From NCBI GenBank assembly GCA_017853275.1, contig JAFMJV010000008.1, positions 20,530 through 84,529 of the forward strand: DNA of 64,000 nucleotides, given 5' to 3'. Below the pieces are notes generated by a model, which saw nothing but the letters and a program-made list of their open reading frames with translations, was not told where the DNA came from and did not search any database. The DNA is from Chloroflexota bacterium (lineage in GTDB: Bacteria; Chloroflexota; Limnocylindria; Limnocylindrales; CSP1-4). Positions 1,469 through 19,301 of the stretch are shown here, piece after piece; positions within the stretch are counted from its first letter, which is position 1; every line of letters starts with the position of its first letter. A program made the translations under genes and the position numbers.

Positions 1469-3916
1469 TCAGGCGGTCGTCTCCCGGAGCTCGATGGCCA
1501 GGAGCGCGGCCTCCGTGATGTGCGGGGTGTCGATCCCCATCGCGTCGTAGAGGTCCGGGATCGTCCCCGTCTGGCCGAAGGTATCCGAGCCGAGCGGGAC
1601 GACCGGCGCCCCGAAGGCCCCACCGAGGAAGGAGAGCGCGTGCGACGCGCCGTCCAGGACGGTGACGATCGGGGCGTGGCGGTGGGTCACGGGGAAGAGC
1701 TCGGAGAGGTGGTCGATGTGGGCGGAGGTGCCCGTCCGGACGGACGCAAGGCGGCGGCCGGCGATCTCCGCGTTCAGGCGGTCCGCGGAGGTGACGACGA
1801 CGAGGTTCGCGTCCACCTCCTCCGTGACGAGGTAGCGGACCGCGGCGATCGCCTCGGGGACGATCGCGCCCATCGCGGCGATCGTCACGCGCGGGGCATC
1901 CGCGGGCAGGGAGGGCTCGATCTCGCGGCCCCGGAGCATGAGGTAGCCGCCGAGGAGGGTCTGGCGCCGCCAGTCGTCCGGCCCGAGGCGGGCGAGGATC
2001 GGCTCGGCGAGCGACTGGTCCACCGCGCGGGTCGTGAGCCGGAGGTAGGTGGAGTAGCCCTGGCGCTCGCCGATGCAGCCGGCGATCCCCTCCTCCAGGC
2101 ACCACGCGACCTCGCGGGCGAAGGCGGGCTCGAAGCTGCGCAGGTTCGGCAGCTCGATCCCGAGCGAGGGGGTGATCGTGGACTGGTGCGCGCCGCCCTC
2201 CGGGGCGAGCGAGACACCGGACGGGGTGGCCACGAGGATGAAGCGCGCCTCGTTGTAGAGCGCGTAGACGAGCGCATCCAGACCGCGCGAGATGAAGGTG
2301 TCGTAGACCGTCCCGATCGGGACGAGCGGCTCCCCGAGGAGCTCCGCCGTCAGCCCCAGCTGGCTGAGCATCATGAAGAGGTTCATCTCGCTGATGCCCA
2401 GCTCCAGGTGGCGCCCGGACGGGTTCGGATGCCACTTCAGGAGGCGCGGGGAGTCGTCGAAGATCGGTCGCGGGTGCCGGTCGTAGACGCCGACCTTGTT
2501 GATCCAGCCACCGAGGTTCGTGGAGACCGCGACGTCCGCGGAGGTGGTGACGAGCCGCTCCGCGAGCTCGGGATGGCGGGCCGCCTCCGTGAGCACGTCG
2601 CCGAAGGCCATCTGGGTGCTCACCTTCGCCGGGATCCGCGGCTCGAGCCGGACCTCGGCGGGGAGCGCGCGCCGGAGGCGGGCACCGCGGTCCGAGGAGC
2701 GCTCGATCGGGCCGTCGCCGTAGAGCTCGATCCGGCGGGCCTCGGCGAGCCGGGCCTCCGCCGATCCCTCCGGGAAGGCCGCCCACGGGTCGTCCGCATC
2801 CGCCCCGAGGAGCGGCGCGAGCGCGGTCACCTGGTCCGCGTTCATCAGCGCGGAGTGGTTGGAGGCATCCCCGGCGAAGGGGAGCTTCCAGCCCTTGATC
2901 GTGTAGGCGAAGATCACGCTCGGGCGGTCCGGCTCCGCATCCGCCATCCGGAGGAGCCGGCCCAGATCCGCGTGGTCATGGCCGCCGAGGTCGGAGAGCA
3001 GGTCCGTCAGCGCGGTGTCGTCGATCTCCTCGGTCAGCCGCTGGAGCGGGTCCCGGTCCACGGCCGCCGCGCCGCCGATCAGCCGGTCGCGGGCCTCGGC
3101 GCCGGGGAGCCGGACCATCGCCTGGTACTCCTCGTTGGACATCTCGTCGATCCGGCGCCGGAGGACGTCCCCATCCTCGCGCGCGAACCACGCACGCAGC
3201 CGGCGGCCGTACTTCGCCTCCAGGACCTGCCAGCCCGCCGCCTCGAAGGTGGCTGCCGTCCGCCGCACGCGGATCCCCGGGATCACCCGGTCCAGGCTCT
3301 GGCGGTTGAGGTCCACGATCCAGGTGACGTGGCCGAGGCCGACGAGCGATTCCTCCTCCAGCGCCTCCCAGATATTCCCCTCGTCCAGCTCGGCGTCCCC
3401 GACCATCGCGACGAAGCGCCGCTCCGGGTGCTCGCGCGCCGCGCTGAAGTGGTTCCGCAGGTAGCCCTCGGCGGACGCGAGGAAGAGCGGCGAGACCGGC
3501 CCGAGACCCATCGACCCGAGCGAGTAGTCCGTGGGGTCGGGGTCCTTCGTGCGCGACAGGTAGGGCTGCAGCCCGCCCTTGCTCCGGAGGCGCGTGAGGT
3601 ACTCGGCGGGGAGGTTCCCCATCAGGTACTGGACGGCGTGGTAGGCGGGTCCGGCGTGGGGCTTGGGGGCGAAGATGTCGCCCTTGCGGAGCCAGCGGAG
3701 GAGGACCTCGGTGATGATCGAGACCGAGGAGGCCGACGAGGCCTGGTGCCCGCCGACCTTCAGCCCGTCCGGGCTCGGCCGCACGACGTTCGCCTCGTGG
3801 ATCATCCGGGTCGCGAGCCACAGGACCCGCCGGTCGATCGTCTCCAGGAGCTCGTCCGGGCCGAGCGCGTCGGGGGTGGGGCGCGGGCGCGGCGTGGATC
3901 GGGTCGAGCGGCTCAT
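1469..3916 (-). CDS. Transketolase / homodimeric pyruvate dehydrogenase E1 (AceE-like) ThDP enzyme
   Basis: RMIHEANVVRPSPDGLKVGGHQASSAS, KPHAGPAYHAVQYLMGNL, SRTKDPDPTDYSLGSMGLGPVSPLFLA, VGDAELDEGNIWEALEEE (ThDP motif). Confidence 0.88.
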   Translation of the reverse strand: MSRSTRSTPRPRPTPDALGPDELLETIDRRVLWLATRMIHEANVVRPSPDGLKVGGHQASSASSVSIITEVLLRWLRKGDIFAPKPHAGPAYHAVQYLMGNLPAEYLTRLRSKGGLQPYLSRTKDPDPTDYSLGSMGLGPVSPLFLASAEGYLRNHFSAAREHPERRFVAMVGDAELDEGNIWEALEEESLVGLGHVTWIVDLNRQSLDRVIPGIRVRRTAATFEAAGWQVLEAKYGRRLRAWFAREDGDVLRRRIDEMSNEEYQAMVRLPGAEARDRLIGGAAAVDRDPLQRLTEEIDDTALTDLLSDLGGHDHADLGRLLRMADAEPDRPSVIFAYTIKGWKLPFAGDASNHSALMNADQVTALAPLLGADADDPWAAFPEGSAEARLAEARRIELYGDGPIERSSDRGARLRRALPAEVRLEPRIPAKVSTQMAFGDVLTEAARHPELAERLVTTSADVAVSTNLGGWINKVGVYDRHPRPIFDDSPRLLKWHPNPSGRHLELGISEMNLFMMLSQLGLTAELLGEPLVPIGTVYDTFISRGLDALVYALYNEARFILVATPSGVSLAPEGGAHQSTITPSLGIELPNLRSFEPAFAREVAWCLEEGIAGCIGERQGYSTYLRLTTRAVDQSLAEPILARLGPDDWRRQTLLGGYLMLRGREIEPSLPADAPRVTIAAMGAIVPEAIAAVRYLVTEEVDANLVVVTSADRLNAEIAGRRLASVRTGTSAHIDHLSELFPVTHRHAPIVTVLDGASHALSFLGGAFGAPVVPLGSDTFGQTGTIPDLYDAMGIDTPHITEAALLAIELRETTA

Positions 3917-3979: not shown

Positions 3980-6010
3980 TCAGCCGGGGCTCCCCACGAC
4001 CCGCAGCAGGACGAGCGCATCGATCTCCACGAGCGGAAGCCCGGTGGCACCCTCCGCCGCGAGCGCCCGCAGCGTGACCGCATGGGTTCCGCCACCGGCA
4101 AGGGGGATGATCCCGACGACCGCGCGCGGCGTCCGGACCGGCGCTGCGAGGTCGATCGTGCGCACGATCCGGCCGTCCACGAAGACGCGGATCCGCCCCC
4201 GTCCCGGACCGGTGGGCGCGATGATCGCGAGCTCGCTCCCCTCCGCCGTGAACCGCAGCGCCGCCCCGCGGCGCTCCGCCCGGTGGAGGTGCCCGTCCAG
4301 CGCATCCGCGGCGCGGCGGCCGGACCAGCCGGCCCACGCGAGCGCGGGATCCCGGTCCTCGCGGAGGTCGAGGCGGACGGCGGCCCGGGCTTCCGGGGTG
4401 CTCGGGTTCCCTGCGCCGTCCGTGATCCGGATCGCGACCGAGCAGTCGCCGGCGGGCGCGCTCCCCGCCACCACGACCGGCCCGGACGCGAGCGGATCCA
4501 CCTCCGCGAAGCTCCCCGTGCCGCAGTCGGGCGTGATCGTGGCGCCCGCGATCCCGCTCCGCTCCTCGGTCATCCGGAAGCGCAGATCGAGCGGGATCCC
4601 TCCACCCGGGAGGACGCTCCCCGGCCCCAGGCGAAGGAGCGGCCGGGAGACGAGCGGGGCGACCGTGTCGAGGATGACGTCGTCGCTGAAGACGGGGCCG
4701 GTCGGGCCCTCCGGGTAGCGCAGCTGGACGCTCACCGTGCGGGTGCCATCGCCGGGGGTCATCGGATGGGTGACCGTCTCCGTGCGCGGGCGCCAGGTCG
4801 TCCAGTCCCCGAGATCGTCCTTCGTCCGGACCTCCTCGCCATCGTGGCTCGGCAGGTCGACCGGGATCTCGGTGGCGTTCGTCGCGGAGGCGCCGCCCGC
4901 GACGCTCATCGGTTGCGTCCGGAAGCGCGTGAGGGAGAGGTCGGTCCCCTTCCAGATGTTCCCGTCCAGCTTCTGGGTCATGCCATCGAAGGCATAGGGC
5001 CGGATCTGCCAGATCCGCCAACCGCTCCAGCCGGTGGGCAGGTACGGCGAGCTGCAGCGCCAGCAGGCGACCCAGAGGGGAAGATGACCGAAGCCCTCCG
5101 CGCTCCCCGTCACCTGCTCCCACATGTGGCGCGAGGTGTAGAGGAGCGGGACGCGCCCGGTGAGCGTGTAGATCCGGTTCACGAGGGCGCGCAGGCGGGG
5201 GACCGTCTCGGACCATTCCGCCCAGCCGAGGGAGGGGAGGCACTCCACGTCCACCGCGAGCGGGAGCGCGCCGTCGATCAGCCCGTGCTCCCGCGCGACG
5301 CTCACGAAGTGCTCGGCCTGGGGTGCGCCCGCGACCCGGTAGTCGAAGAAGTGATACGCGCCGAGCAGGAGACCCTGGCGGCGCGCCGCGCGGACGTGGT
5401 CGTCGACCAGGTCGTCCACGTGGGTCGTCCCCTGGGTCGCCTTCATGATCGCGAAGCGCATCCCGGCCTCGCGGATCGCGGTCCACGGGAGCCGGCCGTT
5501 CCAGTGGCTGACATCGATCCCGGGCGGCTTGTAGGGGGTCGGGGTCGGCTTCGGGGTGCGGGTGGGCGACGGCGTCGCGCTGGGGCCCGGCGTCGGGGAC
5601 GGCGTGGCCACGGCGACGACGACCGGAGCGGGGCTCTGCGTCGCGACGGCAGGAGCAGCGGCCGAGGGCGAAGCCGTCGGCGGCAGCGTGGGGGCAGGGG
5701 TCGTGCTGGGGCGCGGTGTCGGGGTGGCGGGCGGCCGGCAACCGCGCGTGGCGACCGCCGCAGCACGGGCACGCCGCGCCTCCCGGGGTGCGCCGGATCG
5801 GTCCGAGCGCACGACCGGGCCGCCCAGGGGGTCCACGCTCGCACCCGCGGGGATCGGCACGAGGGCGGCGGCCGCCGTCGCCAGGACGAGGACGATGCCG
5901 ATCGTGCTGCGGAGGCGTCCGGTGGAGCGGCGCGGTCGCGGGCCGGCGGAGAAGGCGCGCGGTCCACGCGTCTGCGGAAGGACCATCCACCGCAGGATGC
6001 CACAGACCAC
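3980..6010 (-). CDS. Secreted GH25 lysozyme-like protein with Pro/Thr linker, Ig-like region and C-terminal beta module
   Basis: [66 protein letters not shown]-terminal membrane segment. Exact start uncertain. Confidence 0.88.
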
Positions 6011-9676: not shown

Positions 9677-10618
9677 TCAGGCCGGTCCGTCGAGGAGCGC
9701 GAGGACCGGGACGAGCCGCTCGATCCCGGCGGGCGTGATCGGGTCCATGACGAGCTGGACCTCCGCGATCCCCTCCCGGGCATACGCGCGCAACGTCTCC
9801 GCGATCGCCTCCGGGCTCCCGGTGAGCGGGCGCACCTGGTGCCGGTCCACATCGCGCGAGGTGTCGCCGCCGCCCTCCCAGCGGAGGAAGACCGCGACCG
9901 TGCGGACGACGGTCGCCGGGTCCCGGCCCACCTCCCGGCAGGCGTCGTCCACGAGCGCGCGCATCGCCGGGATCCCGTCCGGCGTGTTCCCGTAGTAGCC
10001 GGTCCAGGCGTTCCACGCGGCCACGTGCGGCATCGTGATCCGGAGCATCCGCGGTCCGATCGAGCCGACCATGAGCGGCGGGCCGCCGGGGCGCGGGCCG
10101 CGCGGGAGGAGCTCGCAGTCGCGCATCGTGTAGAAGCGTCCCGCGAAGTCGATGCGCCCCTCGGCGAGGAGCGTGCGCACGATCGTGAAGGCCTCCTCGA
10201 AGCGCGAGACGAGGTGGTCCACGGGGAGGTCGAGCGCCCGCAGCTCCGCCTCGTTCCAGCCTGCGCCGAGCCCGAGGATGAAGCGGCCGCCGGAGATCTC
10301 GTCGATCATCGTGGCCATCCGGGCGAGGATCCCCGGCCGGTGGAAGACGGTCGCCGCCACGAGCGGGCCGATCTCGATCCGCTCCGTCACGGCCGCGATC
10401 GCGGCGAGCTGCGTCCACGCGTCCCAGGGGCCGCGCGTCCCCGTCTCCGTGCGGTAGAGATGGTGGTCACCCACCCACAGCGAATCGAGACCGATCTCCT
10501 CCGCCAGGCGCGCCATCGTGCGCAGCTCCGCCCAGCGCGGCTCGTACTCCACCTCCGGGAGCTGGACCCCCACGCGCAGGGGCCGCAGGGCGGAGACCCG
10601 GCTTCGTCCGAACGTCAT
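9677..10618 (-). CDS. LLM-class F420-dependent oxidoreductase
   Basis: LAEEIGLDSLWVGDHHL, RIEIGPLVAATVFHRPGILARMATMIDEISGGRFILGLGAGWNEAE. Confidence 0.9.
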   Translation of the reverse strand: MTFGRSRVSALRPLRVGVQLPEVEYEPRWAELRTMARLAEEIGLDSLWVGDHHLYRTETGTRGPWDAWTQLAAIAAVTERIEIGPLVAATVFHRPGILARMATMIDEISGGRFILGLGAGWNEAELRALDLPVDHLVSRFEEAFTIVRTLLAEGRIDFAGRFYTMRDCELLPRGPRPGGPPLMVGSIGPRMLRITMPHVAAWNAWTGYYGNTPDGIPAMRALVDDACREVGRDPATVVRTVAVFLRWEGGGDTSRDVDRHQVRPLTGSPEAIAETLRAYAREGIAEVQLVMDPITPAGIERLVPVLALLDGPA

Positions 10619-11294: not shown

Positions 11295-12086
11295 TCAGCC
11301 CCCGAGCGCCTCGGCGTTCGGCACGCCGATGATGTTGTAGCCACCGTCCACGTAGATCACCTCGCCGGTCACGCCGGCGGAGAGATCCGAGCACAGGTAG
11401 CGGGCCGCGTTGCCGCAGTCCTCGATCGTCACCGGGCGGCGGGTGGGGGTGATCTCCTGGAACTTCCGGTGGAGCGTCTTGAAGCCGCTCACGCCGGAGG
11501 CCGCGAGGGTCCGGATCGGCCCGGCGGAGATCGCGTTCACGCGGATCCCCTCCGGCCCGAGGTCGACCGCGAGATAGCGGACGCAGGCCTCCAGGGTCGC
11601 CTTGGCGACACCCATCACGTTGTAGTTCGCGACGACCTTCTCCGCCCCGTAGTAGGTGAGGGTGAGGATCGAGCCGCCGTTCGTCATCAGCGGCCGCGCC
11701 TCGCGGGCGAGCGCCACGAGCGAGTAGGCCGAGATGTCGATCGCGAGCTGGAAGCCGTCCCGCGAGGTGTTCACGAACTGGCCCTCGAGGTCCGCGCGGT
11801 TCGCGAAGGCGACCGCGTGGACGAGGATGTCCAGCGTCCCGTGGCGGGCCTGCCAGGCCTGCATCACGCGCTTGATCTCCTCGTCGCTCTGGACGTCGCA
11901 GGGCTCCACGAAGTCCGAGCCGATGCTCTCGGCGAGCGGGCGGACCCGCTTGTCCAGGAGGAACTCCATCGAGCTGAACCCGACGGTCGCGCCCTCCTCG
12001 TGGAGCGCCTTCGCGATGCCCCACGCGATGGAATGATCGTTCGCGACGCCGAAGACGAGCGCCTTCTTCCCCTCGAGCAGACCCAT
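11295..12086 (-). CDS. fabI: Enoyl-[acyl-carrier-protein] reductase
   Basis: [75 protein letters not shown] ggaggg. Confidence 0.95.
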
Positions 12087-12151
12087 GGGAACCTCCCTCC
12101 TTGCAGGGCGATAGCATCGCATCACCGACGCGAAGATGGCAGGGAGGTCCG

Positions 12152-13645
12152 ATGAAGCTCCGGTTCCTGGGCGCGGCGACCACCGTGACCGGCTCCCAGT
12201 TCCTGCTCACCACGGAGCGGGCGCGGGTGATCATCGACTGCGGGATGTTCCAGGGCGCGCCCGCGGAATCCGCCCGGAACCGCCTCCCGCTCGCCTACGA
12301 CCCGCGGACGATCGACGCGATCGTCCTCACCCACGCGCACCTCGATCACTGCGGCTACCTGCCCGTCGTCGTGCGCGAGGGATACGCGGGGACCGTCTGG
12401 ACGACCCACCCTTCCGTGGAGCTCGTGCGGCTCGTCCTCGTCGATTCGGGGAAGGTCCAGGCGGAGCAGGCCAAGGTCCGGCGGCGGCGGGCGAAGCAGG
12501 CGCTCCGCAACGGGGGCCCGGGCGCGCCGCCGCCGCGGGTGGCGGAGGGGGATGACCACGAGCGCGCGATGCGCGGGCAGCCGCCGGTCCTCCAGACCGA
12601 ATCGCTCGAGCCGCTCTATGACGTGGACGATGCGGAGGCCGCCTGCCTTCTCCTGCGCGGCACGGAGTACGCGACCCCGATCGAGGTCGCCCCGGGCGTC
12701 ACCGCCACCTTCCACGATGCCGGGCACATCCTCGGCTCCGCGATCATCGTGCTGGACGTGGAGGAGGGCGGGACGACCCGGCGGATCGTCTTCTCCGGGG
12801 ACCTCGGCCGGCCCGGGACGCCGATCCTGCGCGACCCGGAATCGATCATGGGCGGCGCGGACGTCGTCGTGATGGAGACCACCTACGGCGGGCGCGAGCA
12901 CGAGGAGACGGATGAATCGGCGCGACTCCTCGCGGAGGCGGTGAACGCGGCAGCGTCCGGGCGGGGGGTCCTCCTCATCCCCGCCTTCGCGATCGGCCGG
13001 ACCCAGGAGATCGTCTGGGAGCTGGACCGGCTCGTGGCCGCCGGGGCGATCCCCCACGTCCCGCTCTACCTCGATTCGCCGATGGCGAGCTCGGCCTCCG
13101 ATATCTACCGCCGCTACCCGGGCTACTACGACGAGGAGACCTTCCGGCTCCTCCAGGCCGGGGAGACGCCGCTCGACTATCCGGGCCAGGTGGTCGTCAC
13201 GGACGGCGCCGAGTCGCGCGCGATCCGGAAGCGGCCGCGGCCGATGATCATCGTCGCCTCGAGCGGGATGCTCACCGGCGGCCGGGTCGTGGGCCACCTG
13301 CGCGACCTCATCGACGACCCGTCCGCGATCCTCCTCTTCGTGGGCTACCAGGGCGAGGGGACGCTCGGCGCCCACCTCCAGGCGGGCGCCCGGCAGGTCT
13401 GGCTGGACGGGGAGCAGCGTCCGGTCCGGTGCGCGATCCGGACGATCTCCGGCTTCTCCGCGCACGCGGACGAATCGGAGCTCCTCGACTGGCTCGGATC
13501 GCTGGCCCGCGCGACGCGGAAGCCGCAGCGCGTCTTCCTCGTCCACGGTGACCCGGACGCGGCGGAAGCGATCGAGCCCAAGGTCCAGGCGCTCGGGCTG
13601 GCGACCCACCGCCCGGCCTGGCGCGAGGAGGTCGAGCTCCCCTGA
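12152..13645 (+). CDS. MBL-fold beta-CASP RNA nuclease (YSH1/CPSF73-like)
   Basis: [72 protein letters not shown] gggagg. Confidence 0.93.
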
Positions 13646-15430: not shown

Positions 15431-17818
15431 GTGACCGATCGGCTGCGCCCCAGGAACCACCGGATCATCGCGCTGCTCGTCGCCGTCCTCCTCGTCGCGG
15501 GCCTCGCGCCGGCCGGCGTCGCAGGTGCCGGGAAGCAGCTCGGCGCCCCGGTCAGCCCGTGGGTCGTCCTCCTCGCGATGGACTCCGGTCTGACGCGCGG
15601 CGAGACCCGGCGGACGACCCGCGTGGAAGGCCTCGCGATCGCCACGGCGCGGGCTGCGGCGGCGGGCTCGGCGATCGACCGGCTCGAGGCGGCCCTCGGC
15701 TTCCGCGCGACCCAGCGCTACGGATGGGCGGTCGCGGGCTTCGGGGCACGCCTCACCGCACAGCAGGTGGCCGCGCTCCGGCGGATGCCGGAGGTCCGCT
15801 CCGTGGAGCGGGACCGGACCCTCCGGGTCACCGCACAGACGGTCCCCACGGGGATCCGGCGCGCCCGGGCGACCCCCTCCGGCCCGCCGCTCACGGTGGG
15901 CACGAACGTGGCGGTCGTGGATACCGGCATCTCCCTCTGGGAGACCGGGACCGGCTGGCTCCACGACGGGGAGCTGAACATCGCCGGCGGCATGAACGCG
16001 GTCACCCCGAGCGCGGTCCCCTGTGCCAGCCGGACCGGCACGCAGAGCAGCTACCAGGACGGGTACGGGCACGGGACCCACGTGGCGGGGACGATCGGCG
16101 CGGTGGATAACTCCACCGGCGTCGTGGGTGTGGCACCCGGCGCCCCGCTCTGGTCCGTGAAGGTCTTCGACGACCGCGGCTACGGCTCGAACGGATCGGT
16201 CCTGTGCGGCCTGGACTGGATCGCCGCCCGGAACGCGACCGTGGCGGCCGGGGACCGGATCCGGGTCGTGAACATGAGCCTCGCCGGGTCGGGCTTCGGC
16301 TCGGACGGATGTGGCAACCCGGATGCGGGCGCGATGGAAGCGGCGATCTGCGAGCTCTCGGACGAGGCGCTCGTCGTGGTCGCCGCGGGGAACAGCCGGG
16401 ACGACACGACGTGGTTCGCCCCTGCCGCCTTCGACGCCTCCTTCACCGTCTCCGCGCTCTCGGACTACGACGGCCTCCCGGGCGGGCTCGCGGAGCGGAC
16501 CTGCCTGGCGGGCGCCGAGGCGCCGGATGACACCTTCGCCGACTTCAGCAACTACGGGACCGCGGTCGACCTGATCGCCCCGGGCACCTGCATCGCATCC
16601 ACGGACATGAGCTTCCGTGGCGGGGTCGTCGTGATGAGCGGCACCTCGATGGCCACGCCCCATGTCGCGGGTGCGGCCGCGCGCTACTGGCAGATCCACC
16701 CCGGCGCGTCACCGGGAGAGGTCCGGACGCGCCTGGTCGCGTCGGCGAGCTACGACTGGGATGCCGATACGGATCCGGGCCTGACGGAGCTCGCGAACGA
16801 CGACCCGGACCGCCTGCTCGACCTCGCCGCCCTGCTCGCGGGGACGCCGGGGATCGAGATCGGGACGGTTCCCCGGACGATCGTCGCCCGGCCCGGCCAG
16901 ACGAACATCCCGGTCACGATCGGCATCGCCCGGAGCGGTGGGTATACGGGGGCAGTGACCCTCGGCCGCGGGAGCCTGCCGTCGGGGATCGCGAGCGCGA
17001 CCCTCGGCGCTGGTGGCTCGGTCCCGGCGGGCGAGACCGGCTCCGCGCTCATCTCATCCCTCATCCTCGGGGTGAGCGCGGGCGCCTCGGAGGGGGCGCG
17101 GACGCTCACCATCGAAGCGACGGGGAACGGCGTGAGCTCCGCCACCACGGAGCTGGAGATCGTCGTGGACGGGACCGGGCCGGTGGTGGGGGACCCCTGG
17201 CCGCAGATCCGGCTCGCGCGGGCGAAGAGCAAGTCGACCGCGCTCGCCGACCTGGCCTTCAGCGTCTCGGACCCGATCGCGGGCGTGGAGTCGATCGAGG
17301 TGGAGAGGCGCGTGAACGGGGGCACCTGGGCGGGGCTCGGGCGACTCGCGTCGCGCGCCGATTCGGCCGTGGTCCGGCTCACCCCGGGTGTCGTCACGGA
17401 GCTCCGGATCGCGGCCCGGGATCGTGCCGGGAACATCACCCGGACGGACCCCCTGGCGACCACCCTCCTCTTCCACGAGAGCGACCTCTCCCCGGTGGTC
17501 CGGTCCGCCGGCTGGGTCCGGCGCGGGGTGGGTACGGCGAGCGGTGGCGCCCGTCTCGTCACGCTCAAGGCGGGCCGGACGCTGACCCTCCCCGTCGAGG
17601 GCGGCAGCGTGGGGATCTCGGCGCTCGCCGGGGCGACCCAGGGCCGCTTCCGGGTCTTCGTGGACGGGACGCGGGTCGCCACCGTGGACCTCGCCGGTCC
17701 GGGCGGGAACGGGAACCGTGTCGTCTGGGTGGGGACGCTCACCCCCGGCCCCCACACGCTGCGGATCGCGACCGCGGGCGGCCGAGTGGAGATCGACTCG
17801 ATCCTCGTCCTCGAGTGA
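15431..17818 (+). CDS. Secreted subtilisin-like S8 peptidase with inhibitor I9-like prodomain and C-terminal beta module
   Basis: VAVVDTGI, YGHGTHVAGTIGA, VVAAGNSRDDT, MSGTSMATPHVAGAAARY. Confidence 0.95.
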   Translation: MTDRLRPRNHRIIALLVAVLLVAGLAPAGVAGAGKQLGAPVSPWVVLLAMDSGLTRGETRRTTRVEGLAIATARAAAAGSAIDRLEAALGFRATQRYGWAVAGFGARLTAQQVAALRRMPEVRSVERDRTLRVTAQTVPTGIRRARATPSGPPLTVGTNVAVVDTGISLWETGTGWLHDGELNIAGGMNAVTPSAVPCASRTGTQSSYQDGYGHGTHVAGTIGAVDNSTGVVGVAPGAPLWSVKVFDDRGYGSNGSVLCGLDWIAARNATVAAGDRIRVVNMSLAGSGFGSDGCGNPDAGAMEAAICELSDEALVVVAAGNSRDDTTWFAPAAFDASFTVSALSDYDGLPGGLAERTCLAGAEAPDDTFADFSNYGTAVDLIAPGTCIASTDMSFRGGVVVMSGTSMATPHVAGAAARYWQIHPGASPGEVRTRLVASASYDWDADTDPGLTELANDDPDRLLDLAALLAGTPGIEIGTVPRTIVARPGQTNIPVTIGIARSGGYTGAVTLGRGSLPSGIASATLGAGGSVPAGETGSALISSLILGVSAGASEGARTLTIEATGNGVSSATTELEIVVDGTGPVVGDPWPQIRLARAKSKSTALADLAFSVSDPIAGVESIEVERRVNGGTWAGLGRLASRADSAVVRLTPGVVTELRIAARDRAGNITRTDPLATTLLFHESDLSPVVRSAGWVRRGVGTASGGARLVTLKAGRTLTLPVEGGSVGISALAGATQGRFRVFVDGTRVATVDLAGPGGNGNRVVWVGTLTPGPHTLRIATAGGRVEIDSILVLE

Positions 17819-17843: not shown

Positions 17844-19301
17844 TCAGCCGGCCGGGGAGGCGCCCCCGCGCAGCTCCGCTGCCCGCGCGTAGAGGCGCGC
17901 GTAGCGCTGGGCCGGACCGGCCCAGGAGGGGTCCGCGGTCATCCCGCGCCGCACGATCGCTGCGCGCCGGCCGGGGTCCGCGAGCGCCTCGATCGCGCGC
18001 CGGACGGCGTCGGCGAAGGCGGCCGGGTCCGCATCCGCGAAGACGAAGCCATTCCCGGTGGCAGGCTCGGCATCCGCGTCCCGGATCGTGTCCGCCAGAC
18101 CCCCGGTCCGGCGCACCACGGGGATCGTCCCGTAGCGCAGCGCGATCAGCTGGCCCTGCCCGGAGGGCTCGAAGCGCGACGGCATGAGGAAGAGGTCCGC
18201 GCCGGCGTAGATCCGGCGCGCCGCGTCGCGGTCGAAGCGGTCGAGGACGACGACCCGGCCGGGGTTCGCGCGGGCGAGCTCGTGGAGCCCCGCCACCAGG
18301 CGCTCGTCCCCCGTCCCGAGGACGACGAGCCGGGCCCCGGAGCGGACGAGCCCGGGCGCCGCGGCGGCGACGAGATCGAAGCCCTTCTGGGGATCGAGCC
18401 GGCCGACGAGGCCGAGGATCGGTCCGTTGGGATCGAGGCCGAGCCGCGCGCACAGGTCGGTGCGGCAGCGCTCCTTGCCCGCGGGATCCGCCGCGGAGTA
18501 GGGGGCGGCGAGGGCCGCGTCCTCCGCCGGGTCCCAGAGGGCGGTATCGATCCCGTTGAGGATCCCGCCGTAGCGATCGCCCCGCTCGCGCAGGAGGTCG
18601 TCCAGGCCGGCGCCGTACTCGGGGGTGAGCGACTCCCGGGCGTAGGTGGGGCTGACGGTGTTCACGAGATCGGCGTGGCGGACCGCCTCCCGGAGGAGGT
18701 CCACGCCGTGCCGGTCGCCGATGGCATCGGGGAGATCCATCACCCAGGCCCGGTCGCGGGGGACCCAGCCGTGGTAGGCGAGGTTGTGACAGGTGAGGAT
18801 CGAGGCGGTCCGGGCGAGGAGCGGGTCCACCCGGTAGCGCGTCTCGAGGGAGAGGATCGCCGGGGCCGCCTGCCAGTCGTGGCCGTGGAGGATGTCCACC
18901 GGGCGTGCCTCGGCGCGGATCGTCTCGAGCGCGGCGCGGCCGAGGATCGAGAAGCGCGCGGCGTTGTCCGGGAAGTCGCCCTCGGGACCGCCGTAGAACC
19001 CGTCGCGGTGGAAGGACGGGTCATGCTCCACGAAGCGGACCCGGTAGCCGTCCCCCTCCCCGCTGCGGATCGTCACCGGGACCCGCCGGACCCCGCTCCC
19101 CTCCTCCGTCCCGAGCGGGACCTGGACGGAGAGCGCGCTCAGCTCGGAGGGGAGATGCGCGATGCCGCGGTAGCGCGGCAGGTAGACGTCCACCCGGTGT
19201 CCGGCCCGGCCGAGGGCACGCGCGAGCGCGTCCACGACATCGGCGAGGCCGCCGGTCTTGGCATAGGGCTCGCACTCCGAGGTGACCATCGCGATGCGCA
19301 T
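17844..19301 (-). CDS. glgA: Glycogen/starch synthase (GT5)
   Basis: MRIAMVTSECEPYAKTGGLADVVDALARAL, HGHDWQAAPAIL, VGRLDPQKGFDL, MPSRFEPSGQGQLIALRYGTIPVVRRTGGL. Confidence 0.95.
   Translation of the reverse strand: MRIAMVTSECEPYAKTGGLADVVDALARALGRAGHRVDVYLPRYRGIAHLPSELSALSVQVPLGTEEGSGVRRVPVTIRSGEGDGYRVRFVEHDPSFHRDGFYGGPEGDFPDNAARFSILGRAALETIRAEARPVDILHGHDWQAAPAILSLETRYRVDPLLARTASILTCHNLAYHGWVPRDRAWVMDLPDAIGDRHGVDLLREAVRHADLVNTVSPTYARESLTPEYGAGLDDLLRERGDRYGGILNGIDTALWDPAEDAALAAPYSAADPAGKERCRTDLCARLGLDPNGPILGLVGRLDPQKGFDLVAAAAPGLVRSGARLVVLGTGDERLVAGLHELARANPGRVVVLDRFDRDAARRIYAGADLFLMPSRFEPSGQGQLIALRYGTIPVVRRTGGLADTIRDADAEPATGNGFVFADADPAAFADAVRRAIEALADPGRRAAIVRRGMTADPSWAGPAQRYARLYARAAELRGGASPAG

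Follow-up and report, generated by a model that had tools for sequence, protein, structure and literature searches.

A two-domain C-terminal cassette with a predicted CBM-like jelly roll in a GH25 lysozyme and an S8 subtilisin of a Chloroflexota bacterium

Among described domains, the closest to the module studied here are CE2_N (PF17996) and the families CBM35, CBM6 and CBM36. CE2_N, an accessory jelly roll, sits N-terminal of the SGNH/CE2 esterase and, to our knowledge, has no known role in binding. The CBM families occupy a terminal accessory position on exported hydrolases, and the CBM35 of CsxA, according to PMC11002231 citing Montanier 2009, has as its ligand a surface polysaccharide of the Amycolatopsis orientalis cell wall. 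We analyzed a 64,000-nucleotide stretch of a Chloroflexota genome (the window) in which two hydrolases, a GH25 lysozyme and an S8 subtilisin, carry a module of this kind, placed, unlike CE2_N, at the C-terminus behind an Fn3 domain. No description of such an Fn3 plus jelly-roll cassette was found in the literature searched, the coverage of which was incomplete.

Two exported hydrolases with homologous tails

The assignment of the first protein to GH25 combines the profile match with the catalytic motifs DVSHW and DVE, read in the sequence as GIDVSHW and VDVE. Its N-terminus is of the export type, with a hydrophobic signal segment at about residues 35–55, and the protein also contains a P/T-rich linker; the stop codon occupies positions 3980–3982 and the tail lies where the earlier note had placed it. 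The second protein joins the Peptidase S8 profile match to the D/H/S motifs (VVDTG, HGTHVAG and GTSMA), and a signal segment can be read in its sequence as well. The origin of the GH25 protein as a phage endolysin was considered and rejected: endolysin PHROGs match the catalytic domain and not the tail, and the signal segment and the linker speak against it too. The Pfam scan of the two proteins gave no match above cut-off in either tail, and neither window copy of the module falls under a curated Pfam or NCBIfam model.

The C-terminal segments of about 120 aa align with 39% identity, and in a genome-wide search each tail recovered the other (E 6.8e-8 and 3.4e-9). The Smith–Waterman score of the two tails was 138, 15 sd above that of shuffled sequences (mean 35.5, sd 6.6, maximum 77, n = 2,000). 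A module profile of 26 rows, built from relatives with both window sequences left out, was compared with all six frames of the window and matched the GH25 and subtilisin reading frames only (Table 1). We conclude from the alignments and profiles that the two tails are homologous, as the earlier note had proposed for these otherwise non-homologous enzymes. Its description of a preceding Ig-like segment with a D-x-AGN motif was borne out likewise: the motif reads DGAGN at residues 531–535 of the GH25 protein and DRAGN at residues 676–680 of the subtilisin frame, and a second profile, built from the approximately 110 aa preceding the module in relatives and again excluding the window, matched only these two proteins. 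As delimited by the two profiles, the common unit is a two-domain cassette of an Fn3/Ig-like domain (about 105 aa) and a jelly roll, and is thus larger than the earlier note had said.

Table 1. Positions in the window of the two proteins and their domains, with the basis of each assignment
Feature	Position	Strand	Basis
GH25 lysozyme-like exported protein	3980..6010	minus	676 aa in reading frame, start codon uncertain; Pfam Glyco_hydro_25 E 5.8e-35
GH25 catalytic domain	5006..5518	minus	Pfam match, residues 165–335
Extra segment of Ig-like appearance, after the catalytic domain and before the cassette, GH25	4670..4906	minus	Sequence reading only; without Pfam match
Fn3/Ig-like domain of cassette, GH25	4352..4669	minus	Residues 448–553, DGAGN; window-excluded profile E 2.9e-15; beta strands in model
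C-terminal CBM-like jelly roll (predicted), GH25	3983..4351	minus	Residues 554–676; window-excluded profile E 1.8e-25; AlphaFold; Foldseek CBM35/CE2
S8 subtilisin-like exported protease	15431..17818	plus	795 aa; Pfam Peptidase_S8 E 2.6e-42; Inhibitor_I9 prodomain E 8.4e-7
S8 catalytic domain	15899..16762	plus	Pfam match, residues 169–456
Fn3/Ig-like domain of cassette, subtilisin	17168..17479	plus	DRAGN; window-excluded profile E 1.4e-17; model
C-terminal CBM-like jelly roll (predicted), subtilisin	17480..17815	plus	Window-excluded profile E 1e-22; AlphaFold; Foldseek CBM35/CBM6/CE2; sub-threshold Pfam CE2_N E 2.4e-4

Neighboring genes include a transketolase/pyruvate dehydrogenase E1-like gene (1469–3916, minus strand), a luciferase-like monooxygenase (9677–10618, minus) and a starch/glycogen synthase-like glycosyltransferase (17844–19301, minus), none of which has an evident connection in function with either hydrolase. 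In a genome of the same genus (G001), the GH25 gene has been kept together with an SDR-type dehydrogenase (11298–12206, minus, in the window). There, a different module-bearing protein, consisting of cadherin-like repeats, Fn3 and the module, is found at about 15 kb from the GH25 gene; the window equivalent of this position is taken by the subtilisin, about 9–12 kb from the GH25 gene.

Partners, distribution and domain shuffling

To describe the context of the module, we examined 116 different modules from loci gathered with queries from the source family, and the following counts describe that set rather than all distant relatives. The module ends within 10 aa of the stop codon in 105 of the 116 cases (about 90%) and is preceded by an Fn3-like domain in 100; ten modules are internal, and three reading frames carry two. 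Among 52 full reading frames, the partners were S8 (7), RCC1 repeats (7), GH25 (5), bacterial SH3 (5), GH18 (3), amidase_2 (3), NAGPA (2) and metallophosphoesterase (2), along with Ig/Fn3 domains, and scans of individual proteins added SLT transglycosylase and SpoIID. The peptidoglycan-lytic partners thus are of four kinds (GH25, Amidase_2, SLT and SpoIID). At two loci (L029 and L030), the module-bearing protein lacks the Fn3 domain and has a P/T-rich linker and what is probably one membrane segment; it is possibly a membrane-anchored version.

In the source genome (2.89 Mb, 94% complete), the profile search found no module copies beyond those in the GH25 protein and the subtilisin. Weak matches on contigs C114 and C55 (E 0.05–0.1) were out of frame or of low complexity, were not recovered by the profile and were discarded. 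In the family of the source genome, the module was present in 74 of 107 genomes (E 1e-5) with 1–35 copies each, the largest number occurring in genome G070. A sample of the phylum had it in 104 of 301 genomes, and in some of these, proteins of 1,300–3,800 aa contain tandem copies; in one member (G196, contig C8, 76339–88827), tandem copies occur in several adjacent large proteins. Outside Chloroflexota, the module was found in records of Rubrobacter, Actinoallomurus, a Coriobacteriales MAG and Paenibacillus. The module protein of a "Frankiaceae" MAG agrees in length and N-terminus with that of a MAG titled Chloroflexi that belongs to the same site series (L090 and L092), making the Frankiaceae taxonomy doubtful and the contig probably mis-binned. 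The idea that the module is absent from all other exported proteins therefore holds within the source genome but fails among its relatives, where many others do. These results delimit a module that had no annotation and that most of the genomes sampled from one uncultured family of Chloroflexota carry.

The earlier note had described the module as mobile. For mobility as a domain, the support is moderate: the partners are many and unrelated, and there are also GH25 and S8 homologues that lack the module, the source genome included. In a tree of 39 modules, the AU test rejected both the placement of all S8-linked modules in one clade (p 0.022) and that of all GH25-linked modules (p 0.034); the window GH25 and subtilisin copies as sisters, as a local duplication of the tail would predict, were neither supported nor rejected (p 0.395). 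With about 120 alignment columns and mostly weak forks, the module tree provides only moderate evidence for shuffling. The tree of GH25 catalytic domains divides the module carriers into two groups, one formed by the window protein and two close relatives, the other by the remaining carriers, and the best tree needs two module changes; a single clade of carriers was not rejected (p 0.16–0.20). With moderate confidence, we consider that within this family the cassette repeatedly became fused to different exported proteins. As far as the phage and plasmid sequences searched show, the module does not travel on mobile elements, the former giving no module match and the latter one.

Predicted fold and proposed role

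We predicted structures with AlphaFold for the Fn3 domain and module of each tail, using alignments of 48 rows. The models had mean pLDDT of 88.7 and 90.2 and pTM of 0.86 and 0.83, although the two alignments consist of the same sequences in different order and the predictions are thus not fully independent; in the jelly-roll half of the GH25 model, pLDDT was mostly 93–98. Foldseek searches of the PDB with both models returned MiXBM (7ehg), a CBM6-type structure (8j3x), CBM36 (1w0n), CBM35 (2w1w and 2w3j) and the CE2 esterase 2waa, and for the GH25 tail also the CEX esterase 6hfz, with E of about 1e-6 to 1e-3 and TM-scores of about 0.55–0.7 on single-module targets. In a viral library, the best match was a phage protein with a CE2_N domain, with tail proteins among the others. 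Sequence searches for solved structures gave partial and uninformative profile matches at best (E 0.001–0.004). From the models and their Foldseek matches, the tail is confidently predicted to be a beta-sandwich jelly roll of the CBM35/CBM6/CBM36 type, in agreement with the galactose-binding-like fold suggested earlier.

From the models and the partners, we infer that the cassette is probably a CBM-like docking module: the jelly roll would bind a glycan of the cell envelope or the surrounding matrix, the Fn3 domain would act as a spacer, and the secreted hydrolase would in this way be kept where it acts, a role for which the CBM35 of CsxA is a precedent. Given the fold and the partners, binding of a glycan or targeting to the surface is plausible, and the module may then predict which secreted proteins of the family stay at the cell surface. 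We counted against docking that many of the partners, such as those with RCC1 repeats, have no known glycan substrate, that several aromatics are missing in the window copies, and that CE2_N is not known to us to bind a ligand. A wider version, in which the cassette would be a lineage-wide C-terminal tag of CSP1-4-type Chloroflexota that recognizes one envelope polysaccharide specific to them and holds on the cell any exported protein acquiring it, seems unlikely.

We also consider it unlikely that the jelly roll serves its enzyme only structurally, as an accessory that stabilizes or regulates it like the N-terminal domain of the CE2 esterase, and has no ligand of its own. The nearest Pfam family is indeed CE2_N, and several aromatics frequent in the module family are missing in both window copies (W to I at 596/741, Y to A at 622/767 and W to L at 637/782), such that binding may be altered or lost in these. 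A stabilizing domain would, however, be expected to keep one partner, and the many unrelated catalytic partners therefore count against this explanation, as do the Fn3 spacer usually separating the jelly roll from the catalytic domain and the existence of tandem copies.

The extreme C-terminal position of most modules and the very different partner proteins would also suit a sorting or secretion domain, by analogy with the type 9 secretion CTD, with a dedicated machine delivering or anchoring the protein and glycan binding not being the domain's job. We regard this as improbable: modules also occur internally, in pairs and in tandem inside very large proteins, two clients in the source genome and one or none in many others would be odd for a dedicated machine, and the predicted fold is that of CBMs. 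Finally, an origin of the likeness in the composition of the two GC-rich, biased tails (rich in G, V, A and R) rather than in homology can practically be dismissed, considering the distance of 15 sd from shuffled sequences, the window-excluded profile matching both tails at E 1e-22 or better and nothing else in the six frames, and the overlap of the two predicted folds.

Comparison with known families

CE2_N is the Pfam family that the module matches best and most often and, through 2waa, a structural match of both models. It was touched by 22 of 28 module members, and some members matched CBM_6 and CBM_35_2, mostly below the curated cut-offs; the best CE2_N score among the 28 relatives (E 8.7e-9) indicates that some may pass. 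For the window copies, the CE2_N cut-off of 27.9 bits compares with 21.6 bits for the subtilisin tail and the CBM_35_2 cut-off of 23 bits with 13.7 bits (E 0.065), the GH25 tail being unmatched in both. BiPBP_C (PF06832), which likewise lies at the C-terminus of a cell-wall enzyme, weakly matched the subtilisin tail (E 0.004), but far below its cut-off, and matched neither the GH25 copy nor the other members scanned.

With CBM35, CBM6 and CBM36, the module has in common the predicted beta-sandwich (2w1w, 7ehg, 8j3x and 1w0n) and the terminal accessory position on exported hydrolases. It differs from the solved structures in sequence, with identities of about 10–23%, the Pfam matches to CBM_6 and CBM_35_2 are weak, and ligand residues are putative at most. 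A ligand, if found, would inform on an envelope hardly studied so far. The module is a family without a curated model but of a well-known kind; it adds no new kind of mechanism, and we see in it a real but fairly ordinary module, probably for docking and useful for annotation.
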